From positions 1-64,000 of the forward strand of contig CAJXVM010000011.1 of NCBI GenBank assembly GCA_913061095.1: a stretch of DNA of 64,000 nt. Direction: 5' to 3'. Position 1 is the first letter of the stretch. Each line of letters begins with the position of its first letter. Both the position numbers and the translations under genes were made by a program. This DNA comes from an uncultured Ignavibacteria bacterium. Lineage in GTDB: Bacteria; Bacteroidota; Ignavibacteria; SZUA-365. Positions 1 to 27,435 of this stretch are shown one piece after another. The notes beneath the pieces are model-generated. The model saw only the letters and a list, made by a program, of their open reading frames with translations. It searched no databases and was not told the DNA's origin.

Positions 1-3000
1 AATCCGTCCGTAGCCCAGAATCTCGAGACCAATTATTTACCATTTTACGATAGCTATTCGCATCCAAACGAGGATCCAGCTTCATCCATGACTCACGGGT
101 GAATCTTGGCTCCCAAGCATCCTTCCACAGTTCAGCATATGCATTTGTAATGCACACAAGCTTAAGGACCCGTGAAATTATCGGATCCGCATGCAGTTCC
201 GAAATAGGAAGCATATCGGAGATTTCATTTCTGAAATTTGATTTCCCAGTTGACTTCACAAAGAAATCATACGGTATGGAAGAGGTAAGCCCCGAATAGA
301 GCAGTAACGTTGATGTATCTTTGAAAGTTGTCGAGAAAGCACCATCATAATGAGCTGAGTATCTTACCATCACCGCGCCAATGAGAGTTCGCTCCGCGGA
401 GGGACCAATCATCTTCCGGTGTACCGTCCGATAGTACTCCGTCACCCTCTTCTTCTCTCCCCACGGAACGCGAGGGGTACGTCGGCGGTATTCCTCGGAA
501 CTACAGTCGGGGACGTAGTTCGTGCGGGGCAGATAATCCTCTGGTAGGTCGGTGAGATCAAGCACGTCGTAAGCACGATTCGTATTACAGATGCTCCGTG
601 GTGTCTTGAATGCAGGATTTGCGACATAGAAATGTGGGCCTGAAAGGATCAGCTCATTCGCGCTTTTCGGGAAACGTGTTTCACGACGCATGGTGCCGTC
701 CTGCTGCGCATTGACTTCGTTCCAATGTTGCGTGGAATAATACTCTCCCTCAAGATCGCCGAGCCTTTGTGGCTGCTCGGCGAATTTCCTGAGTACATTG
801 AGCAACTCCTGTGCATGTAATATGGGAAGCCGTGCCTCACTTGCCTGCGTTCCTTCTTCATCGTACAGTCGAGCGAAGAGTGCAAGTTCGTCAATACCTA
901 TTTGAATGATTCTGTCTTTGTGACCGGCAGTATCCCATTTGTTCTCTTTGGTTTTGATACCAGGAATTTTCCCTGCTCCATTGTCGGCGTAACACTCATC
1001 GACCGTTCTCGGTAAGAAGAGGTTTGAGATGTGATCGAAAGAGACAGTGTCCCCGAGCATCCTACTGTAAACATTCACGCTGTATTTCGTGTGATTATCG
1101 ACATCCTCAAACAACTTGAATTCATTTTCGAATTGGAAGTGTTTTCGGATTCGCCTGTACAGAGATTGCCTGAACTCCCCGCCCATCGGGTCGTCATACA
1201 CGCCCTCCGGATGCAGAAATGCGGATACTCCCTCTGCATTCCCCGTCATCCAGGCCTGCGGGAGGAAGCATTTATACAAATTCGCCTTCATCCCCACCAG
1301 CAGTGGATAGTTCTGATAGGCGTTGAGAAAATTCTGCGTCCCCTCGGAGGTGGTGAATGCGTCGAGGTACTCCTCCAGCAATCCCGCGATACGTTCGAAG
1401 GTTTCGTCGCGGAGCTGGGCCACTTTGTTCGCCCTGTGCTTCCGCACAACGTAGAGCGGCTCGTAATCGCCTATGACAGCTGCCTCGTTCCATTCGATTC
1501 TTATCCAGGGCGGATTGCCGAGGACGAGGTCGAAGCCGCCGCGCTGGGCGAAGACTTCGGCGAATTCCAGCTCCCAGTGCAGGAAGTTCTGGTCATCGGC
1601 GATGCGCCGCGCGAGGCCGAGGCGCGGGTTCTCGCGGCAGAGTTCGTTGACATCCACGATGCCGTGGCGCTGCAGCAGCTCGAGGCGCAGCTGTTCGGGC
1701 ATGCTCTCCGCGAAGAGGTCGGACTGCGGGGGAGCGGATGAATCCACTTCCTTTCCCTCGAGGATGAGCGCGAGGTCGGCCAGGTACTGTGCCCGCGTGG
1801 GCAGCGTCGCGGCTTCGTCGATGGGCCAGAACCACAGGGCGCACCAGTAGTCCATGGCGAGCTTCAGACGGCGGTAGGGACTGCTGTTGCGCAATCCCTC
1901 CGCGTACAGCTCGCCCTCGAGGATGGCATCCTTCTCTTTCAGTGTCAGCCGCTGCCGGTGACCGCCGTCGCGCTCGTGCCCGAAGATGTCCATGTCATCC
2001 CGTGTGCGCTCGTCAATGCTCGCGCGCATGCGGAGGTGCTCCTCGTACAGTTCATCCGCCGCCGCACATAGCCGCTGCAGCGTGGTGATCTCCTCCTTGC
2101 CGAACGGCGCGATGAAGGACTTCTTCCATTCCTTGATCGCATCGAGGTCGTCCTTCACGAGGGATTTCACCACCCTGTCGTTGTACTCCGCCATCCCGCG
2201 GTCGGGCAGCATCCAGTGATAAACGGTGTCGACGGGACGCTCGTCCCCCGGCTCCACGCGTTCGGGCACTTGCTCCAGCCATGCATCCTGCCCCCTGCTC
2301 TTCTTCAGCGAGGCGGCGGGGAACACCTGCCGGCGCGCGCCGATGAGGGAATTGCCGGTGACGAGCTGATTGCCGAACCAGGGCACGATGCTCTCGCGGT
2401 GGATGGTGTTGAGCCAGAGCGAGACCTCGGCGAGCTCCACGGCGACGGCATTGAGATCCACCCCGTAACAGCAGTTGTCGGCCAGCCAGGCCTTGACCTT
2501 CTGCTTCTCCTGCACGTAGTCGCCGTGCGGGATGACGCGGCCGGACTCCTTCTGCTTCAATCGCAGGTAGGCCTCGGCCGCCTGGTTGACGTATTCGTTG
2601 AGGAAGGCCGCGCTGCCCATCGCGGGCTCGCACACCGCGAGTTCCAGGATGTCGTCGGCGCGTTTGTCCTTCAGCAGCTCTTTCAGCGCGTACTTCACGA
2701 GGCATTCGGTGAGCACTTCGGGCGTGTAGTAGGATGCGCTCTGCTCGCGTCCCCGTCCGGTCAGGCGGTAGATGAAGCTTCCCCTCTCGTAGCGCTTCAC
2801 CCTGCCATCCTCGCCCAGCACCTGCTCGTCCTTCCTGTACTTGTCCAGTTCATCGAGTGTGACGAAGTACGCCTCCTCGAGCGGCGTGGGATTCGTGCCC
2901 TTGCGTTTTACCTCGTACACGTCCTCCTCCGCGAAAAAGCCGGTGTAGGAAAGCAGTCCCTCGTACACCGCGCCGAGCTGGTTGATGCCCAGTTGCGCGT

Positions 3001-4318
3001 AACTGATCCGGCCTGGCCTCTTCCCCTTCTTCGGCCTCGAGAGGGACATGAGCCGGATGATGCGCTGCAGGACTTCGTTGCGGAATTTCACGCGTCCGAG
3101 CACGGGCGTGCGGGCGGGATCGAACAGGTGCGAGCGCAGCGGCGGCATGACAAAGGTGTCGTGCTGCGCCTCGGTGGGCATCTGCACGTAGCCGTGGTTG
3201 TAGCCCTCGTATACCAGTGTGAAGAGATGCTGCAGTGAATTGTGGATGTACACGCCGTCGCGTGCTTCCTCGGTGGTGAGCGGCAGCATTTCGAGGTCGC
3301 GCAGGGACTCCAGCGAGTAGCCCCGGAGGTATTCCTCGCTGTTCATGGGCGCGTAGCCGAGTTCGGGACGCGCCTCGATGTAGAACAGGAAGAGCAGGCG
3401 GTACACGTAGCGCAGGCATTCACGGCTCAGCTCCGCCGCGTCGAGCACGCCGTAGACTTTCTCCCTGCGCACGTCCAGCAGGTAGCGCACGGCCTCGTTG
3501 CCCAGCAGTTCCACGGCCTCGCGCATGGAGAATTTCAGGTCCTCCGACACCGCGTACGCGTGCCGGTGGGATCGTTCGTCGAGCGTATCGAGCAGCGCTC
3601 CTCCCTCGGCGGGAGCGACGGAGTCCCGGTGCAGGAGGGCGGCCATGGCGCGGAGCGTCGAGGACTCCCGCCGGTCGAGAATCTCACGCAGGTCGAATCC
3701 CAAAAGGCGCTTTTCCTGCCACTTGCCGCGGTCCACCAGCACCGCCATGCCGTGCGAGAGCAGCAGCACCCAGCGGGGCGGCTCGTCCATGCGGAAGATC
3801 TCGTCGTCGAGCAGTTCCTCGAGCGTTGCGTCCAGCGCCCGCGCATCGTCAGGGATGTTCTCCGGGTACTGCTCGGGCAGCAGATTGAGATCGAGGGGAT
3901 TCGCCTCGCCGTTTTCCCCCGCCCTGCCGTTCACCGGTGCCACCTCGACCGCCCAGAGCAGCGGTGAACCGTTTGTTCGCCGCAGGTTGCAGAGCACCGG
4001 GATGCTGCGTTCGGCGGCGGCCACGACCTCGCGTTTCACCGGATAGCCCAGCGCGTGCAGCAGGGAGGCGTTGAAGGGCTGCTGGAGATCCAGTACTTCC
4101 GTGGCGCCCCGGGCCTGCTCGAGTTCACGCCGGCTTTCGAAGAACATCTGCCGGAGTCCGCCCAGCGCATCCCACGGCGCGCGGAAGTCCTTTTCCTCCT
4201 TCGCACGGCGGGACCATTGCGAGAGCACTTCCTTCACATCACCCTCGAGGATGTCGCTCAGGTAATGCGCCGAGTAGAACTCGTTCTGGTTGATGATGCC
4301 GGTGAGGTTGAGGGACAT
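1..4318 (-). CDS. Large N6-adenine DNA methyltransferase, Eco57I/PglX-like, candidate DISARM DrmMI (C-terminus beyond window)
   Basis: An open frame runs without a stop from the ATG at 4318 to the left edge, giving at least 1439 residues; the C-terminus is missing. The N-terminal ~500 residues are a large unassigned region. The methyltransferase core begins near residue 530 with SYYTPEV. The AdoMet-binding motif I is EPAMGSAAF (about 564-572) and the catalytic motif IV is NPPW (935-938), typical of N6-adenine amino-methyltransferases. The ~370-residue gap between the two motifs is unusually long and resembles the large methylases of BREX (PglX) and DISARM (DrmMI). It lies 92 bases downstream of a SNF2 helicase on the same strand, the drmD-drmMI order of class 1 DISARM. 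Known: DrmMI methylates host DNA to mark self. Inferred: the DISARM assignment, since drmA, drmB and drmC would lie left of the window. No Shine-Dalgarno is visible before the ATG; three 23-base repeats sit there instead. A Type IIG-like enzyme or another helicase-methylase defence pair is possible. Confidence 0.82.
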   Translation of the reverse strand, partial: MSLNLTGIINQNEFYSAHYLSDILEGDVKEVLSQWSRRAKEEKDFRAPWDALGGLRQMFFESRRELEQARGATEVLDLQQPFNASLLHALGYPVKREVVAAAERSIPVLCNLRRTNGSPLLWAVEVAPVNGRAGENGEANPLDLNLLPEQYPENIPDDARALDATLEELLDDEIFRMDEPPRWVLLLSHGMAVLVDRGKWQEKRLLGFDLREILDRRESSTLRAMAALLHRDSVAPAEGGALLDTLDERSHRHAYAVSEDLKFSMREAVELLGNEAVRYLLDVRREKVYGVLDAAELSRECLRYVYRLLFLFYIEARPELGYAPMNSEEYLRGYSLESLRDLEMLPLTTEEARDGVYIHNSLQHLFTLVYEGYNHGYVQMPTEAQHDTFVMPPLRSHLFDPARTPVLGRVKFRNEVLQRIIRLMSLSRPKKGKRPGRISYAQLGINQLGAVYEGLLSYTGFFAEEDVYEVKRKGTNPTPLEEAYFVTLDELDKYRKDEQVLGEDGRVKRYERGSFIYRLTGRGREQSASYYTPEVLTECLVKYALKELLKDKRADDILELAVCEPAMGSAAFLNEYVNQAAEAYLRLKQKESGRVIPHGDYVQEKQKVKAWLADNCCYGVDLNAVAVELAEVSLWLNTIHRESIVPWFGNQLVTGNSLIGARRQVFPAASLKKSRGQDAWLEQVPERVEPGDERPVDTVYHWMLPDRGMAEYNDRVVKSLVKDDLDAIKEWKKSFIAPFGKEEITTLQRLCAAADELYEEHLRMRASIDERTRDDMDIFGHERDGGHRQRLTLKEKDAILEGELYAEGLRNSSPYRRLKLAMDYWCALWFWPIDEAATLPTRAQYLADLALILEGKEVDSSAPPQSDLFAESMPEQLRLELLQRHGIVDVNELCRENPRLGLARRIADDQNFLHWELEFAEVFAQRGGFDLVLGNPPWIRIEWNEAAVIGDYEPLYVVRKHRANKVAQLRDETFERIAGLLEEYLDAFTTSEGTQNFLNAYQNYPLLVGMKANLYKCFLPQAWMTGNAEGVSAFLHPEGVYDDPMGGEFRQSLYRRIRKHFQFENEFKLFEDVDNHTKYSVNVYSRMLGDTVSFDHISNLFLPRTVDECYADNGAGKIPGIKTKENKWDTAGHKDRIIQIGIDELALFARLYDEEGTQASEARLPILHAQELLNVLRKFAEQPQRLGDLEGEYYSTQHWNEVNAQQDGTMRRETRFPKSANELILSGPHFYVANPAFKTPRSICNTNRAYDVLDLTDLPEDYLPRTNYVPDCSSEEYRRRTPRVPWGEKKRVTEYYRTVHRKMIGPSAERTLIGAVMVRYSAHYDGAFSTTFKDTSTLLLYSGLTSSIPYDFFVKSTGKSNFRNEISDMLPISELHADPIISRVLKLVCITNAYAELWKDAWEPRFTRESWMKLDPRLDANSYRKMVNNWSRDSGLRTD

Positions 4319-4321
4319 GGA

Positions 4322-4390
4322 ACGTAAAGGCGTAAAGGGTGAAGACGTAAAGGCGTAAAGGGTGAAGACGTAAAGGCGTAAAGGGTGAAG
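4322..4390. repeat. Three perfect 23-bp tandem repeats in a translation-initiation region
   Basis: Three head-to-tail identical 23-base units occupy 4322-4344, 4345-4367 and 4368-4390, and a shorter degenerate piece (GGTAAAG) follows. Each unit contains two near-copies of GTAAAG. The array fills nearly all of the 92-base gap between the helicase stop and the methyltransferase ATG. It is non-coding, so unit gain or loss would change the leader length of the methyltransferase without shifting its frame. Confidence 0.9.
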
Positions 4391-4410
4391 GGTAAAGTCG
4401 TTGTTTGTGT

Positions 4411-7299
4411 CTATGATGAACCGGTGATGACGGCGGCGACGCGGATGTAGGGGGTGGACTCGGTGGTCATGACGTCTTTCACCCACTGTTCGTGTTCGTT
4501 GAAGATGCGGTCGAGGCGGCGGAGTTCATTTTCGCGGCGCTGTGCCCACATGGCCTGCACTTTTTCGCCCGCGGCGTCGTAGCGCTGCTCGAGCTGCCGC
4601 TGCTTCTTCTCGCGCAGCTTGCCGAGGCGCACGAGCTGTTCGGCCAGGCGTGCTTTCATGCGCTCGTCGAAGTCGTCATGCCGGTCCTGCATCCACGACC
4701 GCGCGCGCTCCACCGCCTCGGGCAGCAGTGTTTCCAGCTCCGCGATGTCGATCGCCAGACCGGCATTCGGCAGTTTGCCGTCCGCCAGTCCGGTACGCCG
4801 GAGCAGATCGTCGAAGTCCATGATGTCTGCGAACTTTCCGTCGCGGAAGCGCACACCGCACCAGTGCTGCAGGACGGTCTGTCCGCGACGGTTCGGGATG
4901 AGGCAGGAGATGACCACGATACTCTCACCGGGATCCAGCTTCCCTTCGAGCGGCAGCACGGGCGCCTCGCCGCGGCGGTAAGCGGAGAGGATGCCGTCGC
5001 CCAGCCAGTCCATCACCGGATGCAGTTCCCAGAGATACTGCAGCTTGGGCCAGGCCTGTTCGTCCTGCCGGCAGCGCGCGACCTCGTCCTGGATCGCCGC
5101 GGTGTTCGTCGTCAGCACGAGCTCCCGCGTCTCGGGGAGAATTTCCTTCGGCTGGAAGCGATAGCGCTGCAGGAGGTCCTCGGGCATCTGCAGGCGCGCG
5201 ACGTCTTCCCCGGTATCGTAGCCGAATGCGAACTCCTGTCCGCGCCGTTTGCGCACGGACTGCACGGCCTCGCGGAGGAAGCTCATGTCATCGGGGAACA
5301 GCGTCGCGGGACGCCGACATCGCTTGGACGGCGAGGGCGCGTCATCCGCCGGCTTCCCGCCGAGCAGGATTTCGAGCAGGCTCACGTCGGCCTCCCCCTC
5401 GATCATGCTGTTGAACTCTTCCTCCCCTGCCTGCTCCTCCACGGCCGCGGCCACGACACGCTCTTCGTCATCCACGTCGGCCAGTCCCGTGAATTCCACC
5501 GGATCGCCGATGTTCTCGTGCACATGCTGATCCTTCTCGATGAGCAATTCGAGAATGCGCCTGTCCCCTTTGATGCGTTCGCTCGTGCTGTCGGTAAGCA
5601 GATACAGGATCTGGGGATCGCGCTGCTGTCCGTAGCGATCCACGCGTCCGTTGCGCTGCTGGAAGCGGATGAGCGACCAGGGAATGTCGAAGTGAATCAT
5701 CCGGTGGGACAGGTAGTGCAGGTTGATGCCTTCCGATGCCACGTCCGATGCCAGCAGCAGTCGTACCGGCGCATTGTCACGCCCGAAATCCTCCACCACG
5801 CGGTTCTGATCCACGTCCGGGAGTCCGCCGTGCAGGATTTCCACCTGCTCCCCGGTGAGACCGAGGTCCTTCGGCAGGTGCTCCTCGAGGAAGCGCAGCG
5901 TGGCGATGCGTTCGGTGAAGATCACCAGGCGGTCGCGCGCGTCGCTGCCGTCCCACCCGTGCTTGCCGTCCCCGCGCAGCAATTCGAGCAGGCGCGCGTA
6001 CTTGCTGAAATCCTCCCTGCCGATGGCGTCAACCAGGTATTGCAGTTCCGCCAGCTGGCGCGCATCATCGGCGAAATCGTCCGCATCCTCCCGCTTTTCG
6101 ATCGTGCGGATGCGGTTCGCGAGCGTCTCGGAGCAGGCGGCCGGACTCGACAGCAATGACTTTTCCAGCGTCGTGCGGAACAGTTGTCCCGCCCCCTTGC
6201 CGCGATCGACTCGCCCGAGCTTCAGCTCCGCCAGGCGCTCGAACGCGGCCTCCTCGGCGGGAGTCGCCTCGGCGTGGGCGGTGTGTACCGTGCGGGGACG
6301 GAAAGACTGCAGCACCTGCGAGCGTACGTCTTTTTTGTGCCGGCGGATGAACAGTCCGCGGATATCCTCGCGCGTGTAGTTGTCCGGATCCGCGATGGCC
6401 GTCGGATCGAGCATGTTCATCAGCGAGGCGAACGACCGCGGCTTCCCGTCATGCGGCGTGGCGGTGAGCATGATGAGCGCATCGGAGCGTTCGGCGAGCA
6501 GCCGCGCCAGGCGGTGGCGCAGGTTGCGCGTGCCGCGATGCGCGACGGAGTGCGCTTCGTCGATCACGATGACATCCCACCTGCTCTGCTCCAGCCAGGA
6601 CCGGTACTCGTGGTCCTGCTTCAGCGTATCGATGGAGATGATACTGCGGTCATAGTAGTAGAAGGGATTGTGGTTCGCCGGGATGCGACCGCGGATGCGC
6701 TGGATGCCCACGGAGTCGAGGCGCACGAGCGGTATGGTAAAACGGCTCCACATTTCCTTCTGGAACTGCGTGAGCATGCTTTTCATCGTGATGACGAGAA
6801 TGCGCTTGCCGCGTCCACGGCGGATCAGTTCGCTCAGAAGGATACCCGCCTCGAGCGTTTTGCCGAGTCCCACCGCATCCGCCAGCAGGATGCGCTGCCG
6901 CGGCTGTTCCAGCGCCTGCAGGGCGGGCTGCAGCTGATATTCCACCAGGTCCATCGCCGCCCGGTGACCGATGCACAGATCGCCATCCGTCGGCGGCGTG
7001 CGGCGCAGCAGCGCCTCGATATACAGGCGCGTATCGCGGAATCCCGGCGAGTTGTCCGGCACCAGCGCCGTGCGTGCCGGATCCATCACCTCGATCGCAT
7101 CCTCGATCTGCGTCAGGAAAATCGCCTCCCGGTCACGCACGATATCCGACACCCCCGTCACATGGATCGCATGTCCCCCATCACTCGCGGCATCCACGCG
7201 CTTGATAATCCACTCCGCATCCCGGACGAGTATTCGGAGTCCGGGCGCGAGGTTGTGTTTGGATGTCGTATCAGATCGGGGCATGAATAAGAGCTTCAC
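4411..7299 (-). CDS. SNF2-family helicase/ATPase, candidate DISARM DrmD
   Basis: A 962-residue superfamily 2 DNA-dependent ATPase of the SNF2/HepA type. Visible motifs, numbered from the GTG at 7299: Walker A ADAVGLGKT (K147), DEAH box (247-250), motif III LTATPH, and in the second RecA domain SEGINLHYL followed by the motif VI-like QRNGRVDRYGQ (about 545-556). A basic, coiled-coil-rich C-terminus follows. The N-terminus (LAPGLRILVRDAEWIIKRVD) is a small domain before the motor. GTG 7299 overlaps the upstream lipoprotein stop as GTGA; an ATG five codons in (7284) is an equally reasonable start. With the large adenine methylase just downstream this matches drmD-drmMI of class 1 DISARM, an anti-phage system whose helicases act on incoming DNA. 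The motor assignment is firm; the DISARM role is inferred from gene order and size. A HepA/RapA-like or other defence helicase is the alternative. Confidence 0.88.
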   Translation of the reverse strand: MKLLFMPRSDTTSKHNLAPGLRILVRDAEWIIKRVDAASDGGHAIHVTGVSDIVRDREAIFLTQIEDAIEVMDPARTALVPDNSPGFRDTRLYIEALLRRTPPTDGDLCIGHRAAMDLVEYQLQPALQALEQPRQRILLADAVGLGKTLEAGILLSELIRRGRGKRILVITMKSMLTQFQKEMWSRFTIPLVRLDSVGIQRIRGRIPANHNPFYYYDRSIISIDTLKQDHEYRSWLEQSRWDVIVIDEAHSVAHRGTRNLRHRLARLLAERSDALIMLTATPHDGKPRSFASLMNMLDPTAIADPDNYTREDIRGLFIRRHKKDVRSQVLQSFRPRTVHTAHAEATPAEEAAFERLAELKLGRVDRGKGAGQLFRTTLEKSLLSSPAACSETLANRIRTIEKREDADDFADDARQLAELQYLVDAIGREDFSKYARLLELLRGDGKHGWDGSDARDRLVIFTERIATLRFLEEHLPKDLGLTGEQVEILHGGLPDVDQNRVVEDFGRDNAPVRLLLASDVASEGINLHYLSHRMIHFDIPWSLIRFQQRNGRVDRYGQQRDPQILYLLTDSTSERIKGDRRILELLIEKDQHVHENIGDPVEFTGLADVDDEERVVAAAVEEQAGEEEFNSMIEGEADVSLLEILLGGKPADDAPSPSKRCRRPATLFPDDMSFLREAVQSVRKRRGQEFAFGYDTGEDVARLQMPEDLLQRYRFQPKEILPETRELVLTTNTAAIQDEVARCRQDEQAWPKLQYLWELHPVMDWLGDGILSAYRRGEAPVLPLEGKLDPGESIVVISCLIPNRRGQTVLQHWCGVRFRDGKFADIMDFDDLLRRTGLADGKLPNAGLAIDIAELETLLPEAVERARSWMQDRHDDFDERMKARLAEQLVRLGKLREKKQRQLEQRYDAAGEKVQAMWAQRRENELRRLDRIFNEHEQWVKDVMTTESTPYIRVAAVITGSS

Positions 7300-18595: not shown

Positions 18596-18624
18596 TTGCA
18601 TCGATCTTCAAGACAATGTACATT
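18596..18624 (+). promoter_or_regulatory. Sigma-70-like promoter of the FHA/kinase operon
   Basis: -35 TTGCAT (18596-18601), 17-base spacer, -10 TACATT (18619-18624), 63 bases upstream of the first operon ATG at 18687. No other candidate was seen inside the tightly packed six genes that follow. Confidence 0.55.
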
Positions 18625-18686
18625 TCCTCTACAAATAGCCGCCGGAATGCGTGCCGAAAGCTGTATACTGATGAGGAGGATCATTG

Positions 18687-19247
18687 ATGAAACGTTGCAA
18701 TCATGGACATTTCTATGATGAGAGCAAGCACACGATGTGCCCGTATTGTGGAGTACTGGATGAGGAAGTGAATGCCACGATCCGGAAACGGCCCACCGAC
18801 CCTGACAGCAGCGAATCTGTTCATGCAACGAAAAGGATCGAAGACCCACGGAAGGATTCCCTCCAAGGAGAAACGATCCGCGTCGTCAAAAAACAAACCG
18901 GTGTTGATCCTGTAGTGGGCTGGCTCGTTTGTACGTCCGGTCCTGAAACTGGTCGAGACTACAGGATCCGCAGCGAGCGCAACTTCGTTGGGCGGTCTCC
19001 CGCCATGGATATCTGTATTCAAGGGGATGAGGCTATCTCGCGTGAAAATCATGCAATAATCAGCTACAACCCGCGAAGCATGAGCTTTTCACTTGTTCCT
19101 GGTGACAGCCGAGGCCTGGTTTATATTAATGGAGTGGAAATACTACAAGCGACGGCGCTTTCAGGATTCGACGAAATTGAATTCGGTCAAAGCAGATTCC
19201 TTTTCGTTCCACTTTGTGGAGATCGATTCCAATGGCCGTCCGAGTAA
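18687..19247 (+). CDS. Small cytoplasmic zinc-finger plus FHA-domain protein
   Basis: 186 residues without a signal peptide. The N-terminus (CNHGHFYD then CPYCG, residues ~4-23) is a Cys/His zinc-binding knuckle of the kind found before FHA domains. After a charged linker an FHA fold occupies ~75-180: NFVGRSP (GR loop), ISRENHAII (the usual SRxH appears as SREN-H) and the final strands FDEIEFGQSRFLF. FHA domains bind phosphothreonine peptides, so this is a likely cytoplasmic reader of the kinase encoded at 22613-24226. The substituted SRxH motif may alter or weaken phosphopeptide binding. ATG 18687 follows GAGGAGG; a TTG one codon earlier is less likely. The 3' end overlaps the next gene by 16 bases. 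First gene of the operon. Confidence 0.85.
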   Translation: MKRCNHGHFYDESKHTMCPYCGVLDEEVNATIRKRPTDPDSSESVHATKRIEDPRKDSLQGETIRVVKKQTGVDPVVGWLVCTSGPETGRDYRIRSERNFVGRSPAMDICIQGDEAISRENHAIISYNPRSMSFSLVPGDSRGLVYINGVEILQATALSGFDEIEFGQSRFLFVPLCGDRFQWPSE

Positions 19248-20605
19248 TCACGCTTTTTCTAACTGTCTTCTTCATTCTGCTCACAACGACTCACGCACAG
19301 TCACCCGTGAAAGAGCGGATCAGACATGCTGTTCAAATCCGTGATACATTGCATCTTTCACTGGCCCCGAAACTGCACAGCAACAGTACTCCGACCTCGT
19401 TTATTGACGGCAGAGAATTGCCGGTTCAATGGGAACCAAATGGGACCACCCGAACGCATGCGGTTCTGGTCGTGGTCGATATTTCGAAATCCATGACCCT
19501 TCGAAACATGAATTTCGTGAAACACTTACTGCTGAAGGTCTCCCATGCTCTCGACTCTTCAGCCATGCTGGGTATGGCAACGCTTGGAGATGACGTAGAA
19601 ATTCACGTATTCCCCACAATAAACCGTACCCCCATTCGTTCATGGACTGATTCACTTGAAGCCGTTGCATCCAACACGGGTCTGCGTGAGGGGTTGATTC
19701 GGATCATAACCTGGTTCCGCAACCAGATCTCTTTACCCCCCGAACGCTCCATTGTCTTTTTTACCGATGGCGTTGAGGATTCTCAATACGGCATGACACG
19801 TGAAGAAATGAAAGAGATCTTGGTACTTTCCGGCATTCCAGTTCATGTGATACCCGTTCGCAAGCCGGAAAGTGATGCGGGGATGGAAATAGCACTGGTT
19901 ACGCGATCATCAGGCGGGAATATACTTCCAGCTAGTACTTCCGCGATTGACAGTTCCGTCAGTGAGTTGGTACACTCGTTGATAGATCACACCAGCATGA
20001 GGATTCCACTTCCTTCAGAGATTTGTGATGGCGGCTCACACACTCTTGAAGTGGTATTTGAGCATCACGAAGATTACCGCCGAGTGCGCCGTGCTATCAC
20101 AATTGGCGCACTTGGTGACGAAGACTCCATGACAAACTGGTTGTTCGCAGCTCTCGTCACCATTGCCACAATCGCTGCGCTCCTGCTCATATTCAGAAAG
20201 AATCGCAACCGGGTGCAATGGAGACAGGGTCATACAGCACTCTCGAATATTTCTGATGCTGACACGACCGTCCACCTTCCTGTCACTGATTCAAAGTTTT
20301 TAAACCATATATATCTTTACAAACTGGGCCGTGGAGAAGACAACGTAATATCCTGGAAGGGGAGCAAGAACGAAGCAATTGCCGGCAGGCTGGATTCATG
20401 TGACCTTGTACTCGATGATGACGACCGCATCTCTTCCCGACACTGCCGTTTCAGATTTGCAGGGGATGGTGTTTTCCTGAATGATCTCAATTCCACGAAT
20501 GGTACCTACGTCAACGGTGTACGTATTGAGAACGAATACCTGCTTTCCGACGATGATGTCATTCTGGTGGGAAACTCGGAATATCGCTTACGAATAAGGC
20601 GTTGA
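19232..20605 (+). CDS. Membrane protein: periplasmic vWA domain, one TM helix, cytoplasmic FHA domain
   Basis: 457 residues. Signal sequence (1-23, TTTHAQ); von Willebrand A domain about 75-265 with the metal-binding MIDAS motif D83-I-S-K-S and the later TDG. A single TM helix lies at about 306-328 (LFAALVTIATIAALLLIF). The C-terminal FHA domain (about 365-457) has canonical GR, SSRH and LNSTNGTYVNG motifs. The predicted topology puts vWA in the periplasm and FHA in the cytoplasm. vWA domains bind protein ligands through a metal ion; FHA binds phosphothreonine. This protein could therefore pass a periplasmic binding event to the kinase/phosphatase pair, or anchor the complex. The start ATG 19232 is chosen because it directly precedes the signal sequence and overlaps the previous gene. 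It resembles TerY-like vWA proteins only in domain type, not in layout. Confidence 0.88.
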   Translation: MAVRVITLFLTVFFILLTTTHAQSPVKERIRHAVQIRDTLHLSLAPKLHSNSTPTSFIDGRELPVQWEPNGTTRTHAVLVVVDISKSMTLRNMNFVKHLLLKVSHALDSSAMLGMATLGDDVEIHVFPTINRTPIRSWTDSLEAVASNTGLREGLIRIITWFRNQISLPPERSIVFFTDGVEDSQYGMTREEMKEILVLSGIPVHVIPVRKPESDAGMEIALVTRSSGGNILPASTSAIDSSVSELVHSLIDHTSMRIPLPSEICDGGSHTLEVVFEHHEDYRRVRRAITIGALGDEDSMTNWLFAALVTIATIAALLLIFRKNRNRVQWRQGHTALSNISDADTTVHLPVTDSKFLNHIYLYKLGRGEDNVISWKGSKNEAIAGRLDSCDLVLDDDDRISSRHCRFRFAGDGVFLNDLNSTNGTYVNGVRIENEYLLSDDDVILVGNSEYRLRIRR

Positions 20606-20609
20606 TTTC

Positions 20610-21389
20610 ATGTTTCGAATATCTGTCAGTAATGCACAAGCAAAAGGTGCACGCAGTTTGCAGGAGGATGCCTTCGGCAGCTCACCTCTTCCAAAAGACG
20701 GTCTCCTTGCAGATGGTTGTTTCTCGGCGATTGTTGCCGATGGAATAGGCGGCCTTCCGCATGGAGAATACGCAAGCAGGATAGCGGTTCAGTCTTTTCT
20801 GGAATCCTGTGTCACCACACCAGCAGAAATCGATGCAGGGGAGCGTTTATTTATTGCACTGGAGAAAGCAAACACAGCCGTATATACCTTCCAACGTGAG
20901 TCATGTTCAGAGGATGGCCTCGGAACGACAATGATCGCAGTGTCAATACATAGTGATGGTCTTGATTGGATATCCGTCGGTGATTCACACCTGTATCTCT
21001 TTCGTGATGGTACATTGACACAACTGAATACTGATCATGTCTATCTGGCTGATCTCTTCGGTCTGGTGAACAGCGGTCTGCTCTCACGAGAAGAAGCGAT
21101 GCTCGATCCACGCAGAGAAGCACTTACAAGCTATATCGGTGACCAGGCAATCCCTCAAATTGACCGAAATCAGGAGCCAATGCCACTCAGGGTTGGAGAC
21201 ACCCTTCTTCTTTGTTCGGATGGTGTCTACGATTTTCTCAGTCGGGAAGAACTCTCGTTAGTACTGGCTGATTCCAAGACAGATCCAGCCGGCGATCTTA
21301 TCCATTTAATTGAAAAAAGACGTTTGAAGCATCAGGATAATGCAACCGCGATCGTCATTGGTATTTCCTCAAACGGAGAAAATGCATGA
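20610..21389 (+). CDS. PP2C-family Ser/Thr protein phosphatase
   Basis: 259 residues, the usual single-domain length for a bacterial PP2C. All key motifs are present: QEDAF near the N-terminus, VADGIGG (metal-binding Asp), GTTM, VGDSHLYLF, LLLCSDGV and DNATAIVI near the C-terminus. It is a soluble cytoplasmic enzyme that uses two metal ions to hydrolyse phosphoserine and phosphothreonine. It is the expected antagonist of the kinase two genes downstream and of phosphorylated partners recognised by the three FHA domains in the operon. It begins four bases after the vWA-FHA gene, and its stop overlaps the next start (ATGA). Confident family assignment; the substrate is inferred. Confidence 0.95.
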   Translation: MFRISVSNAQAKGARSLQEDAFGSSPLPKDGLLADGCFSAIVADGIGGLPHGEYASRIAVQSFLESCVTTPAEIDAGERLFIALEKANTAVYTFQRESCSEDGLGTTMIAVSIHSDGLDWISVGDSHLYLFRDGTLTQLNTDHVYLADLFGLVNSGLLSREEAMLDPRREALTSYIGDQAIPQIDRNQEPMPLRVGDTLLLCSDGVYDFLSREELSLVLADSKTDPAGDLIHLIEKRRLKHQDNATAIVIGISSNGENA

Positions 21390-22591
21390 TCTCGAAGTAC
21401 TCAGAAACATTCAGGCACAGTGCGTTCATGGCTGCCGCAATAATACTACTGGTATTGATCACGACCATTCCCCTGAATGCGCAAACGGCCATTGAGCGTG
21501 TCACAAGTATGACCGTCCGCCTTGAAACAGAGGAAGGGAATGGTTCCGGAGTCATTATCGGTGACGGCCACCATATTCTTACGGCTGCGCATGTGGCAAA
21601 CCAGCAGCATGTCACTGTCCGTACACCGGATGACAAGACTGTCGATGCACATCTGTTATGGAGCTCGAAAGATCTGGATCTTGCCCTACTGAAAACAGAT
21701 TCTCCTCTTGCGGACACCGTCCCCTCATTCGTCAACAAGAAGTCTGTCCAACGTGGATCGCGTGTGTACGTAGTTGGTTTCCCTTGGGGAGACCGCGACG
21801 AAGACCGCTCAACTGATGCGACTGTGACACAGGGAATCATCAGCCGTTTAACGACTGATGAAATAAAGCGTACACTCATTCAAATCGATGCCGCAGTGAA
21901 TCCAGGTAATTCCGGTGGTCCCCTCGTGGACGAGCAGGGACGCATCGTGGGTGTTGTTGTTGAGAAATTCATTGGAATTGGTGATGGAAACGTTTTTATC
22001 CCTAGTGAAGGAATTGCCTATGCCGTGCCGGCATACGAGACGTGGCCGCAATTGCAGTCACTTGGGATTCCGTTTACTGTGTATGAACCGCCCGAGTCAC
22101 AATGGTACGATTCATTATTCGATTTGTGGAAAGAGCAACCAGTTGTTGCAATCCTCATACTGATCCTTATCATTCTTATCATGGCGGTCTTTATTATGCT
22201 TCTTACCAAGCGTGGAAGATCTTTCGCCCGAGTGTCTATCTCGCATCGACTCACGAGACAGGGTGAACCCATCGAATATGAACTGCTTGGTATCACTGGC
22301 CACTGGCGGGATCAACGCTTTCCAATCAATTCTGAGAAGCTTGTGATCGGCCGTGATCCGATGGAGGCCAGTATCGTCCTGGCCAGCGAAGTTGTATCAA
22401 AGCGCCATTGCAGCGTAATGCGTGATAATGCCTCTGACCGTGTCATCCTGACTGACGAAGGTTCTTCAAATGGTACTCTGGCCAACGATACGATTCATCT
22501 TCAGTCCGGTTCCACGTACTCTTTGAGTTCTGGCGACCGGTTTTCCGTCGGCAGCAAGCAAAACGTATTCCAGGTAGTGAAAAAAGACTAG
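21386..22591 (+). CDS. Membrane-anchored trypsin-like (HtrA-type) serine protease with cytoplasmic FHA domain
   Basis: 401 residues. Signal/anchor segment about 12-32 (LLVLITTIPLNAQ). The S1C trypsin-like protease domain spans about 35-225, with a complete triad H69 (TAAHV), D98 (DLALLK) and S176 (NPGNSGGPL). There is no PDZ domain, unlike HtrA/DegP. A TM helix follows (about 252-277, AILILILIILIMAVFIML), then a cytoplasmic FHA domain (about 305-398) with VIGRD, SKRHCSV and DEGSSNGT. The layout therefore repeats that of the vWA-TM-FHA neighbour, with a protease as periplasmic head. Inferred: a regulated periplasmic protease whose activity or placement is coupled to threonine phosphorylation in the cytoplasm. 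The start overlaps the phosphatase stop by four bases, so translational coupling is likely. Fusion of S1C protease, TM and FHA is uncommon. Confidence 0.92.
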   Translation: MISKYSETFRHSAFMAAAIILLVLITTIPLNAQTAIERVTSMTVRLETEEGNGSGVIIGDGHHILTAAHVANQQHVTVRTPDDKTVDAHLLWSSKDLDLALLKTDSPLADTVPSFVNKKSVQRGSRVYVVGFPWGDRDEDRSTDATVTQGIISRLTTDEIKRTLIQIDAAVNPGNSGGPLVDEQGRIVGVVVEKFIGIGDGNVFIPSEGIAYAVPAYETWPQLQSLGIPFTVYEPPESQWYDSLFDLWKEQPVVAILILILIILIMAVFIMLLTKRGRSFARVSISHRLTRQGEPIEYELLGITGHWRDQRFPINSEKLVIGRDPMEASIVLASEVVSKRHCSVMRDNASDRVILTDEGSSNGTLANDTIHLQSGSTYSLSSGDRFSVGSKQNVFQVVKKD

Positions 22592-22612
22592 TTTAACTGT
22601 GTTTTCAAGTTG

Positions 22613-24226
22613 ATGACACACCGTCCTATTGATATTGATCCCTCTGCTCTCTGCCCTGGCTGCTTCCAGGCAGACTATCCGCGTATCCGGTGTGCTGGAT
22701 GCGGCTTCCGGCCGTCTGACCAGACTCATCTCCTCGCTTTGCCACACGGCAGCCTCCTCGGCAAGGTCTACTTCGTAGGCAAGATCCTTGGAAGACCGGG
22801 CGGATTTGGAATCACCTATCTGGCATGGGACCGCACCTTGCAGATGCGCGTCGCAATAAAGGAGTATCTCCCGCGAGAGCTGGCGCATCGAGACACAGCC
22901 AGTAATACGGTTACGGCCTACTCTCATGCCGATGCAGAACTCTATCACAAAGGGCTTGAACAGTTCCTGCAAGAAGCACGCTTGCTGGCGCAATTCAATC
23001 ACCCCAATATTGTACGTGTACGCACATATCTCGAAGAAAACGCCACGGCTTACCTTGTAATGGACTTCGTCGAGGGCAGAACGCTCGAAGAGTATGTTCA
23101 TAGCCAGGGTGGGCAACTGAAGGAAGATCTTGCCATTCGTATGCTGCTGCCAGTCTTGGATGGTTTGCGAGCCTTACATTCAAAGGATATTGTCCATCGT
23201 GACATAAAGCCGCAGAATATCTATCTCGCAGAGGATAAGATCCCTGTCCTTCTCGATTTCGGTGCGGCACGCTCAATCCTCGGTTCACATGGCCGATCAC
23301 TCTCGGTCATTGGTACTCCTGGCTTCATGCCCCCAGAGCAGTTTCATGGAACCACGCAACAAGGTCCATGGACTGACGTTTACGGGCTTGCTGCGACTCT
23401 GTTCTACCTCGTGGAGGGTAAAACATTCTCAAGGGTGGGAATGGACTCGTCTATGCATTCCGCTGAAAAGGAAAGGACTTTTACAAGAACTTCTGACCGT
23501 CTTCGCAGAATTCTTCAGAAAGCACTTGCAGCCGATCCATCTGAGCGCGTTCAGAACGCAGAACAATTATTGACTGAGCTGCTTGCGATTGCAGAACCCA
23601 GAAAGACTGTTTATTCTGAATCAAGTACTGCATCCGAGATTTCGAAAGATCGTCACATTTCGCCTCTGCGGCACCTACTTGCTTTCGGATGGATATCAAC
23701 CTCAACTTCAGCGTTACGGCAAATAACAGACGATATATCATATGCGTTACAGAAGACGTATTCGCGACATCGAGTCTTTTTTATTGGCCTTCCAATGCTG
23801 CTCCTGCTTCTCTGGATATCCTATACACTTCTCGACCCTTCAGAGGAAGAGACAGAGAACCATACGCTCATATTACCGTCGTCTGAACCAACGGAAGTAG
23901 CCGAAGAAATGACTGCTGACGAGGTTGGGGAAACCATTCCACGGCCAATCGGCAAACGGGAATCAGTTGAGAGGTCGACTCCGTCGAGAGCACGTGAGAC
24001 AATATGGGCTCCATCAGCCGAGGCTATTATCAAAGACGTCTTGCGACATGATTACAGGTTCCAGACTGGGTACACATCAAGCGAGGTGCGAGAAAAACTA
24101 AAAGAGATACGTCGGCGACCCGGTGTCCTTGATGAGACAATTCGCAGGTGGCGAGAGATTCCTCTTCCTTTGTTCAATGACCGCACCGAGGAGGAGATAC
24201 GCAAAGCAATGAAGAAACGCTTCTGA
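22613..24226 (+). CDS. Transmembrane Ser/Thr protein kinase with N-terminal zinc ribbon
   Basis: 537 residues. Residues 11-32 form a four-cysteine zinc ribbon (CPGC...CAGC). The Hanks-type kinase domain spans about 45-325: GGFGITYLA glycine loop, K83 in VAIKEYLP, HRDIKPQN with catalytic D197, DFG D215 and PPEQF in place of APE. A juxtamembrane stretch, one TM helix (about 384-406, FIGLPMLLLLLWISYTLL) and a ~130-residue C-terminal part predicted to be periplasmic follow. That part is acidic/Ser-Thr-rich and then helical and basic. All catalytic residues are present, so it should be active. It is the only kinase in the operon and the natural source of phosphothreonines for the three FHA readers and the PP2C. 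ATG 22613 is preferred over the TTG directly before it. The GGFGITY and KEYLP signatures resemble kinases of T6SS-type threonine phosphorylation pathways, but no T6SS genes are seen here. Confidence 0.93.
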   Translation: MTHRPIDIDPSALCPGCFQADYPRIRCAGCGFRPSDQTHLLALPHGSLLGKVYFVGKILGRPGGFGITYLAWDRTLQMRVAIKEYLPRELAHRDTASNTVTAYSHADAELYHKGLEQFLQEARLLAQFNHPNIVRVRTYLEENATAYLVMDFVEGRTLEEYVHSQGGQLKEDLAIRMLLPVLDGLRALHSKDIVHRDIKPQNIYLAEDKIPVLLDFGAARSILGSHGRSLSVIGTPGFMPPEQFHGTTQQGPWTDVYGLAATLFYLVEGKTFSRVGMDSSMHSAEKERTFTRTSDRLRRILQKALAADPSERVQNAEQLLTELLAIAEPRKTVYSESSTASEISKDRHISPLRHLLAFGWISTSTSALRQITDDISYALQKTYSRHRVFFIGLPMLLLLLWISYTLLDPSEEETENHTLILPSSEPTEVAEEMTADEVGETIPRPIGKRESVERSTPSRARETIWAPSAEAIIKDVLRHDYRFQTGYTSSEVREKLKEIRRRPGVLDETIRRWREIPLPLFNDRTEEEIRKAMKKRF

Positions 24227-24244
24227 TAATTCAAAAGAATCAAT

Positions 24245-24727
24245 ATGATCAGGCTGTTCATTGTCGGATTACTATCCATCTCTATTGCAGGCTGTGCAAC
24301 CAAAGAGGTCATTGCACCGTTCTACGTGAGTACGGGGGGAAACTGGGATTCACGGACGGAATTTCGATTGCATGACTGCGGTCCTCTGAATACCTCTGAC
24401 AATCATGGCAGCACGGGCTATCTCGTTGGCATGATTGCAAGTGGCGTTCTTGGTCTGAAAGTCCTCACAGACAGCAAAAACTCTGGTTCCCAGTTCCTTG
24501 GATTGACTCTCCTTGGCGCTGGTGGCTATCTATATTACCTCTGGTCTTCAAACAATAAGACCTACAGCGCTGTCGCGACCGGCAATAACTACAAAAGCGA
24601 TGTGACACTCAATGGCTGCGTAGTGGAATTCCCGTATCCACCGGGATCAAATTGCCGATTTATCACACTCGAATTTAAAAATGGAAGCACGATCCGGGTT
24701 GACCTGAAGGATCCCATCATCGAATGA
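24245..24727 (+). CDS. Small putative lipoprotein ending the FHA/kinase operon
   Basis: 160 residues. The N-terminus MIRLFIVGLLSISIAGCATK is a clear lipoprotein signal with lipobox IAGC. Two further hydrophobic, glycine-rich stretches lie near residues 60-75 and 85-100 (LGLTLLGAGGYLYYLW) and could form a membrane hairpin. Two cysteines in the C-terminal half (NGCVV, SNCRF) could pair in the periplasm. No family recognised. It starts 18 bases after the kinase, so it is probably the last gene of the same transcript and a periplasmic partner of the membrane complex. Its function cannot be read from sequence. Confidence 0.8.
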   Translation: MIRLFIVGLLSISIAGCATKEVIAPFYVSTGGNWDSRTEFRLHDCGPLNTSDNHGSTGYLVGMIASGVLGLKVLTDSKNSGSQFLGLTLLGAGGYLYYLWSSNNKTYSAVATGNNYKSDVTLNGCVVEFPYPPGSNCRFITLEFKNGSTIRVDLKDPIIE

Positions 24728-24819: not shown

Positions 24820-27435
24820 TCACTCCCATTTCGTAATAATACTTGATTTATATTCTCCATCTACTTCCACTCGTAAAACATATTTTCCTTTCTTTAAGTG
24901 ACTGATATCCAGAAGCTGATGAAGAACTTCTGTAAATTCAATCGGCGTGCGTTGGAATACTATCCTTCCCATCATGTCATAAATGGAAAGAGACACAACG
25001 TGTGAGCCGTCCTCCCGAATACGCACGGTGAGACTACCATCATTTGGCTCCGGGAATACCCAGAGATCGAAACTCTTTGTTGTAACAGGCAGATCCACAT
25101 CGAGAACCGTAACGATCAATGGGCTTGACATGTTCTTGCATCCATTCAAGTCTGTTATTTCCACAGCATATGTTCCGGTTTCCTTCAGGACGTATATCTG
25201 TGTTCTCGCTTCTGGAATTGGCGTACCATTCCGAAACCATTGCCAGGCATTTGCCGGACTGGCAAACAGGACATTACCGTTTCGTGCGATAACAGGTTTC
25301 TCTGGAACAGGGTATAGTGTGATCCTGCGTGCAGGAGAGGTCCCTTCGCAGCCTGGTGTATTGCTCACAGTCACATAAAACTCGCCCTCTCTACGGACAG
25401 TGATCTTCCTGGTCGTCTCTCCGGTGTTCCATTGGTATGCGCTCCAATCACCAGCATCGAGAATGAGTGAATCACCGGGACAGAGGGGATTCGAACCGGT
25501 GACCGTTATAACTGGGGATGGATTCGGATGCACCATTACCTGAAGCTTGTTGGATAATCCTTTCTGTCCTTGCGCATCTTGAACTAGCACCCAGTATTGG
25601 CCAGATTCTTTCACTGTAATCTGTCGAGTGTCCGCACCATTTGACCACTCATAGGAGGTGTATCCCGTTCCTGCATCAAGGATGACGCTATCACCCTCGC
25701 AAAACTCGACTGGTCCCTGCGCTGTCAGCGTCGTGCGAAAGGAAAATTCAACCTCCGGAATATATAGGGGCCGTTCGCATATCGTCTCAGTTGTGTCCTC
25801 CGTGAACGCCCGCACTCTCACCAGATATTCCTTATTGGTCATCGACAATGGGTGCTGCAAGTGCCACTGCACTGTACCCTGCTCTTTTGGTTTGAGAATC
25901 ACAGGCTGCACATGTTTCACATAGTTATCCGGCGCATCCGCACCTGTCAGAGACAGGTCTCCGTCAATTATTATCTCTGCGAACACCGAGTCGGTCTCAT
26001 GTGGACTCCTGTTCACCACCGTCACATTAACCGGGAATGGAACGTATTGCATGTTCGCAGTGTCCAGTCTGATAGGCGGTATATCGATGGTACATCCCAG
26101 TGTCACTTCGCGAGGGATAATACACACTTCCCCTGGATCGATGATGGGAATGTGGCATCCCTGTTTGAACACTGCATCGATCGCTTTGATTTCGAAGCAC
26201 GTTGTATCCACCAGGTCCGAAGCATGGAACGTGAACTCCATCAAGAACCCTTTTTTGTATAGTAGTTTTCTGTCCATCATCTGAACGTATACGCCTCCCG
26301 GCACTGCCGTCACGTTTATCGGTATGCCTTCCAGCATGGATCCCGCAGGCGCTTCAACGCTCTTGTACTGCATGGCCCCCTGGTCATAATTCAATGTGAA
26401 TTCCAGAGGATAGAACATTGCCTCCGGGACCATCGGAGTGACTAGGTTCAGCGGAATCTTGATATCCGAATCCCCCTTTCCTTCGCTGCTACCCAGCTCC
26501 ATGACAAGATCAGTGTAAGTAGACGGATCCAGCGGCGCGCGGTACGTCTTTGTCTTCACGTCCGTGCCGCCGCAGAAATTCACCATCTGCAACTCTACTG
26601 TGCGCATCCCGCCGTCTGCGCAGTCACGTTGATAAGTGATCACGCACTCCTGGAAGCTCTCGAAAATAATCGTTGATATCTCCCTATAGATTGATGCCAG
26701 CTGGCTTGTATCCAGGGTCTGATAGTGCCGCCCGCCTGTCTGCAGCGCGATCTGCTGCAATTCTGTCTCGTTTGTAGAAGTCCCGAGAGAGATAGTGAAA
26801 ATGTGTATGCGGTTCCGGTTGGCAAGCGAGATGACATTATTAGGGGTATACGTGGATGAATTGTCCCCGCCATGTGCCAGCACGATCACTGCTCGGCACT
26901 GATTGACGCCCCTATTGATCACCTCCTCGACGCCTGCGTAGGTACCATCCCACACAGAGGTGGGCCCGCTGGCTGGCAGCCTATCGATGGCCGAGTAGAG
27001 CATTGGCTTGTCTGAGGTCATTTCTTGTCCGGTTGTCACCCTGTAGGCATACCAGATTACTGCGGCTTGATCAACGATACCGTCCATTTGATCGACGAAA
27101 GCCCGGGCAGCAGCTTTTGCGCCCGCGTTACCTGTCCCGCTCATTGACCCTGACGCGTCGAATACCAAAGCGACTGAACTCGCACAGCGAACGGTGTGAT
27201 CCGGGCATTTAAGCGCAAAACCCTGGACCGGAACACCGTTCTCGTACACTTTGAAATCCTGTTTGGAAACGTTGGAGCCATATCCGCCGTTACATCCCGG
27301 GTAGAAGTACAGCTCTATCGTTGGGTAGTTGACCGTGATGCGCTTGAAGTTCAGGTTCGGCTGGGCTGTTGCGGTATATCTGAATCCCAGCAGCAAGAAT
27401 AGGGTTACCAGTATGAACGTTGAGTTTCGACCCAT
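24820..27435 (-). CDS. T9SS-secreted von Willebrand A protein with Ig-like/gliding-type repeats
   Basis: 871 residues, convergent to the kinase operon. Signal peptide (1-24, TATAQ). A vWA domain lies at about 85-265 with MIDAS D93-ASGSMS and a conserved WDGT segment; a cysteine pattern surrounds it. A cohesin- or anchor-like beta region follows at ~300-430. Three short Ig-like repeats lie about 570-790; the first two have the ILDAG..YxWxxGxxTxxIxVxxxGxYxVxV pattern of surface proteins in this phylum, and the third is a variant. A T9SS type A-like sorting domain (about 795-871) has VFPEPNDGSLTVRI and ends SSIITKWE. Likely a surface-exposed adhesion or scaffold protein with a metal-dependent ligand site. 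Its vWA domain and the periplasmic vWA of the neighbouring operon differ in layout; a functional link is only suggested by position and by similar lower GC. Confidence 0.88.
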   Translation of the reverse strand: MGRNSTFILVTLFLLLGFRYTATAQPNLNFKRITVNYPTIELYFYPGCNGGYGSNVSKQDFKVYENGVPVQGFALKCPDHTVRCASSVALVFDASGSMSGTGNAGAKAAARAFVDQMDGIVDQAAVIWYAYRVTTGQEMTSDKPMLYSAIDRLPASGPTSVWDGTYAGVEEVINRGVNQCRAVIVLAHGGDNSSTYTPNNVISLANRNRIHIFTISLGTSTNETELQQIALQTGGRHYQTLDTSQLASIYREISTIIFESFQECVITYQRDCADGGMRTVELQMVNFCGGTDVKTKTYRAPLDPSTYTDLVMELGSSEGKGDSDIKIPLNLVTPMVPEAMFYPLEFTLNYDQGAMQYKSVEAPAGSMLEGIPINVTAVPGGVYVQMMDRKLLYKKGFLMEFTFHASDLVDTTCFEIKAIDAVFKQGCHIPIIDPGEVCIIPREVTLGCTIDIPPIRLDTANMQYVPFPVNVTVVNRSPHETDSVFAEIIIDGDLSLTGADAPDNYVKHVQPVILKPKEQGTVQWHLQHPLSMTNKEYLVRVRAFTEDTTETICERPLYIPEVEFSFRTTLTAQGPVEFCEGDSVILDAGTGYTSYEWSNGADTRQITVKESGQYWVLVQDAQGQKGLSNKLQVMVHPNPSPVITVTGSNPLCPGDSLILDAGDWSAYQWNTGETTRKITVRREGEFYVTVSNTPGCEGTSPARRITLYPVPEKPVIARNGNVLFASPANAWQWFRNGTPIPEARTQIYVLKETGTYAVEITDLNGCKNMSSPLIVTVLDVDLPVTTKSFDLWVFPEPNDGSLTVRIREDGSHVVSLSIYDMMGRIVFQRTPIEFTEVLHQLLDISHLKKGKYVLRVEVDGEYKSSIITKWE

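Follow-up and report, generated by a model that had tools for sequence, protein, structure and literature searches.

The window analysed here is a 64,000-nucleotide stretch (positions 1 to 64,000 of contig CAJXVM010000011.1, assembly GCA_913061095.1) from an uncultured Ignavibacteria bacterium. At 18684–24727 it carries six co-oriented open reading frames (ORFs), all on the plus strand, encoding in order a zinc-knuckle FHA protein (here termed the hub), a vWA protein with a signal peptide (SP), a transmembrane (TM) segment and an FHA domain (SP-vWA-TM-FHA), a PP2C phosphatase, an S1C (HtrA-type) protease (SP-S1C protease-TM-FHA), a zinc-ribbon Hanks kinase with one TM segment, and a lipoprotein (Table 1). 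The first five of these genes form a block that recurs in other phyla, and we propose that they constitute a Ser/Thr phosphosignalling switch acting across the cell envelope.

Gene products of the operon

Given the likeliest starts (ATG at 19232 for the vWA gene and at 22613 for the kinase gene), successive genes are spaced by −16, +4, −4, +21 and +18 bases. A first-pass annotation, made from the sequence alone, had described a six-gene array with gaps or overlaps of at most 21 bases; the ORF check confirmed this arrangement. The domain make-up that it listed was recovered by Pfam searches of proteins 1–5 (FHA; VWA and FHA; PP2C_2; Trypsin_2 and FHA; Pkinase), by hydropathy, which also agreed with its signal and TM segments, and by a SIAGC lipobox in the sixth product. 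The single promoter that it had assigned to the operon was not supported: a sigma-70-type consensus scan, which does not cover Bacteroidota-type promoters, gave no plus-strand site 5′ of the first gene and no excess of sigma-70-like sites over the whole region (6 versus 7.6 in shuffles).

The hub begins MKRCNHGHFYDESKHTMCPYCG. Its zinc-knuckle residues C5, H9, C19 and C22 are invariant or nearly so across 14 hub relatives, and because of this conservation the 'zinc finger' label originally given to the protein is correct. The linker that follows (residues 24–68) is probably disordered, as most of it has a predicted local distance difference test (pLDDT) score below 50 in the AlphaFold2 (AF2) model. 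It contains Thr64, which is kept in 14/14 relatives in contexts that include ETVGVFRSK, reminiscent of the GarA/OdhI site ETTSVFR. In a strict test, a T-[VIMLQ] motif lay within 24 residues of the FHA domain in 25 of the 35 zinc-knuckle members. GarA and OdhI were also the best solved relatives of the hub profile by sequence (5e-8), and a fold search with the AF2 model retrieved GarA. Scores against the OdhI equivalog NF041660 (26.1 of 200 bits, far short of the cut-off) and FhaB (20.7 of 125 bits) did not reach the cut-offs of these models.

Across 44 hub linkers, TV[AGS] occurred 47 times versus a shuffled mean of 8.6 (maximum 17), in 24 sequences versus at most 14 in shuffles. The same kind of motif search gave nothing above shuffles in the linkers of the vWA and protease proteins or in the juxtamembrane segments of PP2C proteins. 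Because Thr motifs are enriched in the linkers of the hub and not in those of the vWA and protease proteins, we predict that the hub is the likely phospho-acceptor of the system; like GarA and OdhI, it appears to carry a phosphorylatable Thr motif ahead of its FHA domain. One hub-like FHA protein elsewhere (locus L091, 290–1558, plus strand) has a linker with about nine copies of DDDNRTIAFS, which may form an array of phosphosites.

The two membrane FHA proteins share one plan. In the vWA protein (FHA 4e-20, VWA 5e-7), hydropathy placed signal and TM segments at residues 5–23 and 309–327, and the AF2 model (pLDDT 81) showed a signal helix followed by a vWA fold set in a beta-sandwich, a TM segment at 304–329 and an FHA domain; the best fold matches were the inter-alpha-inhibitor heavy chain and archaeal ArnB/vWA2. 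A metal-ion-dependent adhesion site (MIDAS) motif was present by strict pattern in 17/21 vWA-FHA proteins, including that of the window. In the protease, the corresponding hydropathy segments are at 12–30 and 253–271. The flank of the TM segment that is rich in lysine and arginine (K/R) faces the FHA domain in 19/20 vWA proteins and 20/24 protease proteins. This balance bears out the plan of signal, periplasmic head, TM segment and cytoplasmic FHA domain that the first-pass annotation had proposed for both.

Across block loci, 27 of 29 trypsin ORFs carry an FHA domain, and the catalytic triad H69-D98-S176 is kept in 26 of the 27 protease-FHA proteins. A Pfam search of the window's protease gave no match to a PDZ domain, and 27 of the 29 trypsin ORFs have no room for one because at most 64 residues separate protease and TM segment; the spacers of the other two are coiled-coil-like. 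Domain order can differ. At L157–L159 (three genomes from one other family of the same phylum) it is inverted to FHA-FHA-TM-trypsin with the predicted sidedness unchanged, FHA inside and protease outside. Three loci (L050, L055 and L190) encode single chains of the form PP2C-TM-S1C protease-TM-FHA, with complete domains and a consistent topology. The PP2C of the window's operon is a free-standing protein without a TM segment; it matched the NCBIfam Stp1-like model at 7.9e-39, yet below its cut-off.

The kinase shares with its relatives a CPGCF...CGF ribbon and the motifs VAIKE, HRDIKPQN and DFG. Hydropathy put its TM segment at residues 389–407 and the tail is predicted to be extracytoplasmic; in 68 of 80 kinase proteins the K/R balance placed the kinase domain in the cytoplasm. 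The window kinase's own tail has no known domain. Ectodomains of zinc-ribbon kinases range from 0 to 1156 residues (in 5 of 83 kinases the tail is absent or no longer than 36 residues), and their families include PASTA (16/56), FGE-sulfatase (6), Ig-like, InlB-type repeats, TPR, LRR and beta-helix. Varied sensors over a constant core are the pattern that a modular envelope-sensing system would show. At the clostridial loci L061, L069, L074, L083, L087 and L118, at least three zinc-ribbon kinases with ectodomains of differing lengths stand in tandem.

Table 1 Features of the operon and its surroundings in the window
Feature	Coordinates	Strand	Basis and remarks
Zinc-knuckle FHA protein, ZF-FHA (zinc knuckle C-x3-H-x9-C-x2-C, probably disordered linker, FHA)	18687..19247	+	Pfam FHA 6.7e-8; proposed phospho-acceptor hub
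Thr64 codon (GETIRVV), Thr preceding the FHA domain	18873..18875	+	Invariant in relatives; predicted phosphosite
SP-vWA-TM-FHA protein	19232..20605 (vWA ~19463-19984, TM 20138-20194, FHA 20381-20572)	+	Pfam, AF2 model, MIDAS DISKS
PP2C phosphatase	20610..21389	+	PP2C_2 4.3e-12; sole PP2C_2 match in genome
SP-S1C (HtrA-type) protease-TM-FHA protein	21386..22591 (protease 21512-22003, TM 22142-22198, FHA 22343-22552)	+	Trypsin_2 1.2e-29, FHA 7.7e-13
Hanks kinase	22613..24226 (zinc ribbon 22652-22705, TM 23774-23830, tail ~130 residues)	+	Pkinase 5.3e-39
Lipoprotein, co-oriented	24245..24727	+	SIAGC lipobox read from sequence; no Pfam family above cut-off
vWA/Ig protein	24820-27435	−	Type IX secretion system (T9SS) sorting tail
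IIG-type restriction-methyltransferase (cut by window edge) and DrmD-like SNF2 helicase	1-7299	−	DISARM- or BREX-like pair

Recurrence and origin of the block

We surveyed the block from two baits. The 80 loci that scored best with a kinase alignment in 84,980 species were annotated with purpose-built hidden Markov models; a kinase-independent search used the hub in 296 genomes of the organism's own phylum and in 369 genomes of the class to which G420, a Chromatiaceae bacterium, belongs. The loci compared are therefore those nearest by kinase plus a hub-based sample, their ORFs were called mechanically, and several contigs end inside the block. We defined the block by a zinc-knuckle FHA protein, a PP2C, a kinase and a membrane FHA protein with a vWA and/or S1C head, all of which occur together in the window.

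Components of the five-part set recurred in Pseudomonadota, Nitrospirota, Bacillota, Thermodesulfobacteriota, Latescibacterota and other Bacteroidota, that is, in at least six phyla. The complete set was found at eight further loci: Comamonadaceae (L048), Nitrospirota (L050 and L055), Sporomusaceae (L052), Desulfosporosinus acididurans (L065), Lachnospiraceae (L088), the class of G420 (L190) and plasmid p4 of Azospirillum lipoferum 4B (L178). Methylomonas lenta (L073) encodes four of the parts: hub, vWA-FHA protein, PP2C and kinase. Because the same parts recur across phyla, the arrangement exceeds chance. The hub was present in 13/296 genomes of the phylum and 10/369 of the class, nearly always in single copy. 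Within six genes of the hub, the 22 hub-bait loci encode a PP2C in 20 cases, a kinase in 13 and a membrane FHA protein in 15, and both loci that lack a PP2C sit on contigs shorter than 5 kb. FHA or PP2C neighbours accompany kinases with an N-terminal zinc ribbon at 35/47 loci, versus 8/31 for equally close ribbon-less kinases (Fisher p 2.8e-5). Distance matrices of the components correlate (r 0.51–0.88), and none of 500 permutations reached the observed value. The block is thus a unit: its genes stay together in other phyla, as the first-pass annotation required for its novelty claim, and diverge together.

The sixth gene does not belong to the conserved set. The lipoprotein was rejected as a component because it has no relative in any other block locus (phmmer at E 0.1 across the 84 loci compared returned only the self-match), so the first-pass reading of it as part of the system fails. 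A definition by six genes was likewise rejected: hub loci of the same phylum pair the hub with a vWA-FHA or a protease-FHA protein, rarely with both.

Some blocks are larger. At L048, L049, L085, L104, L109, L112, L153, L154, L195, L196 and L197, extended versions contain a PF01618 protein of the MotA/TolQ/ExbB family and, in many cases, an ExbD-like one (beginning NIFNLSMLDVISG) that has a coiled coil or vWA domain; these may form a proton-driven partner complex. On Leisingera and Ruegeria plasmids (L177, 7659–15568; L179, 1–11169), kinase, FHA and PP2C genes adjoin bacterial dynamin genes.

In its own genome, the operon is close to the organism's entire Hanks/FHA/PP2C repertoire: our screen returned one PP2C_2 protein (the operon's), two Hanks kinases (one in the operon) and two strong FHA proteins (both in the operon). 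The other Hanks kinase (C11:96369–97118) lies outside the window, 73 kb from the block, within a 1733-residue open frame.

A search for the vWA-TM-FHA protein found none in four congeners and seven further family members, and none among 185 other class members sampled save four FHA-only matches. GC content in the block is 0.48–0.51 (0.39–0.53 at third codon positions), versus 0.57–0.64 (0.66–0.79) in most other window genes tested; the two flanking genes are intermediate (0.51–0.53). Since the block is absent from the 11 genomes of the same family and is GC-poor, the simplest account is that it was probably gained by horizontal transfer. The hub, protease, PP2C and kinase are each nearest to Pseudomonadota versions, and a tree placed the hub among Pseudomonadota with weak local support.

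Orthologues of the gene upstream of the operon occur only in a single congener (G236) and in one further genome of the family (G248), and the downstream gene is one of a family that numbers dozens per genome; an empty-site comparison accordingly yielded no insertion boundary. The vWA/Ig protein with the T9SS sorting tail has 51 matching segments in its own genome and 19–52 in each of 11 family genomes. A link of the block to T9SS, raised at first pass, found no backing, as its neighbours elsewhere vary and are mostly housekeeping genes.

Relation to known systems

By domain, the vWA protein, PP2C and zinc-ribbon Hanks kinase, three of the block's five parts, resemble the TerY-P triad. In TerY-P, however, the zinc ribbon sits C-terminal to the kinase (PMC11090510), whereas in the block it is N-terminal (residues 15–32, ahead of the kinase domain); the block's vWA domain is exported, TM-anchored and FHA-tailed, and the FHA proteins and protease are additional. 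Pfam gave no TerY-C match, and the genome has no TerD. With the threonine phosphorylation pathway of the type VI secretion system (T6SS; PpkA, PppA, Fha1; TagH) the block shares a clustered membrane kinase, PP2C and FHA effector, but it has three FHA proteins, two of which are TM proteins with periplasmic heads. The sheath gene VipB/TssC had no match in the window's genome in a search that was positive in the Escherichia coli control. Ribbon position, the exported vWA domain and the lack of TerD and VipB thus uphold the earlier view that the layout is neither of these.

In the GarA/OdhI switch with PknB/PknG, too, the FHA protein is soluble and its FHA domain follows a disordered stretch that holds a conserved Thr; the block's hub differs in its N-terminal zinc knuckle and in being embedded in a membrane protease/vWA operon. 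Like DegS, DegP and MarP, the block's protease is an S1C enzyme of the periplasm that is anchored in the membrane and keeps its His-Asp-Ser triad, HtrA/DegS being its best solved relatives, but it scores under the DegP, DegS and MarP model cut-offs and has a C-terminal TM segment and cytoplasmic FHA domain in place of PDZ. In archaea, the FHA protein ArnA has ArnB as its phospho-regulated partner (PMC6509490), and the two form a soluble FHA–vWA pair under kinase/phosphatase control (PMC6509490, PMC12852372, PMC7472852). ArnB's vWA domain lies inside a beta-sandwich, as in our AF2 model of the block's vWA protein; ArnA-ArnB is archaeal and cytoplasmic, with a PP2A-type phosphatase and no protease, whereas the block joins vWA and FHA on one TM chain. 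We found no description of the five-gene layout in the open-licence literature. The recurrent block is apparently a variant of bacterial kinase-PP2C-FHA signalling that has had no name so far.

A proposed trans-envelope switch

Read from sequence, the block comprises a kinase that looks active and has a tail predicted to be periplasmic, a PP2C, a soluble hub and two TM proteins with predicted cytoplasmic FHA domains. Because it recurs from two independent baits, with PP2C beside the hub, fusions, a conserved protease triad and co-diverging components, we interpret the five genes as a self-contained, horizontally spread trans-envelope Ser/Thr switch in which hub phosphorylation is read by FHA-tailed heads (probability about 0.55). 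The kinase tail would sense an envelope condition, and the activated kinase would phosphorylate Thr64 and other Thr-Val-type sites of the hub linker. Phosphorylated hub may then work like GarA or OdhI, and phosphothreonines of the hub or the kinase may serve as docking sites for the FHA tails of the two membrane proteins. Phosphorylation in the cytoplasm would thereby cluster or activate the heads outside, an inside-out control replacing the PDZ input of DegS/DegP; PP2C would reset the switch. The most likely output of the system is the protease, and the vWA protein is likeliest a Mg-dependent capture or adhesion partner. More tentatively, and with rather less assurance than for the switch itself, these loci may represent a widespread signalling system with a cytoplasmic phosphothreonine code, in which interchangeable envelope-sensing kinases write on the hub, TM FHA tails rather than PDZ domains control an HtrA-type protease and a vWA head, and extended versions are coupled to an ExbB/ExbD-like complex.

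Several observations weigh against this interpretation. Neither head is obligatory, since the protease or the vWA protein is missing from many loci, and shared species history may contribute to the co-divergence. The hub-linker motif counts take in tandem repeats of a few proteins (for example, at L091), and the hub may not be the sole substrate, as the FHA linker of the window's vWA protein holds a DTTVH stretch. Finally, the genome FHA screen overlooked the weaker hub FHA domain and is thus not exhaustive.

Signalling might instead run from outside to inside, with the vWA and protease heads as sensors and kinase and phosphatase downstream: cleavage or ligand capture outside would alter the FHA platform inside, which would gate kinase activity and phosphorylation of the hub, and the hub would in turn control a cytoplasmic target, as GarA controls metabolism. 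GarA and OdhI, which the hub resembles, control cytoplasmic enzymes, and, as some zinc-ribbon kinases have a minimal tail or none, sensing need not fall to the kinase. We nevertheless consider this direction unlikely, given that most kinase ectodomains are long and diverse with binding-type folds and that an intact protease triad fits the need for an effector, although DegS is both sensor and effector.

Descent from the T6SS threonine pathway, or regulation of another membrane machine including an ExbB/ExbD-like complex, is improbable. The kinase-PP2C-FHA logic is held in common, a related kinase on a Pantoea plasmid adjoins tssH with TagH and PP2C in the same cluster, and genes of the MotA/ExbB family and ExbD-like genes occur in the extended variants; yet the window's genome lacks VipB/TssC, its block lacks an ExbB/ExbD-like gene, and the known T6SS pathway has neither protease-TM-FHA nor vWA-TM-FHA proteins.

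We find it harder still to credit an anti-phage defence or abortive-infection module akin to TerY-P, KKP or PD-T4-6 kinases. The kinase matches the PADLOC mad6 and PD-T4-6 models, the methyltransferase and helicase genes lie 11 kb upstream of the operon, and the block's distribution is patchy and horizontally moved. The PADLOC matches (MADS, PD-T4-6, RT-protease), however, reflect generic kinase or trypsin similarity with no complete system, and defence families were about equally few in the flanks of the block (100 proteins) and of control kinases (84 proteins). This lack of excess speaks against the phage-attack and defence-island link suggested at first pass; moreover, the flanks are largely housekeeping, there is no nuclease or other evident toxic effector, and the hub had no match in phage records. 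That promiscuous signalling domains merely cluster and have no joint function, as the differing composition of blocks might suggest, is very improbable; at the level of gene linkage this reading is refuted by the neighbour excess, the fusions and the co-divergence. Of the first-pass interpretation, then, the unit, its two-headed plan and its distinctness from TerY-P and the T6SS pathway stand, while phage defence, T9SS and lipoprotein membership are not borne out.

HtrA-type proteases are known to be controlled from the periplasmic side, via PDZ domains. If the trans-envelope switch is as we propose, bacteria would also govern an HtrA-type protease from the cytoplasmic side through Ser/Thr phosphorylation, using a dedicated kinase and phosphatase and three FHA readers that a single operon encodes. 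The block looks like an overlooked signalling circuit, a five-gene set unnamed across at least six phyla. Several traits make it a compact model for the question of how FHA proteins of bacteria locate their targets: it mostly occurs once per genome, its distribution is patchy and horizontal, cultivable species and gut Clostridia carry it, and in this genome it makes up almost all of the Hanks-type repertoire.

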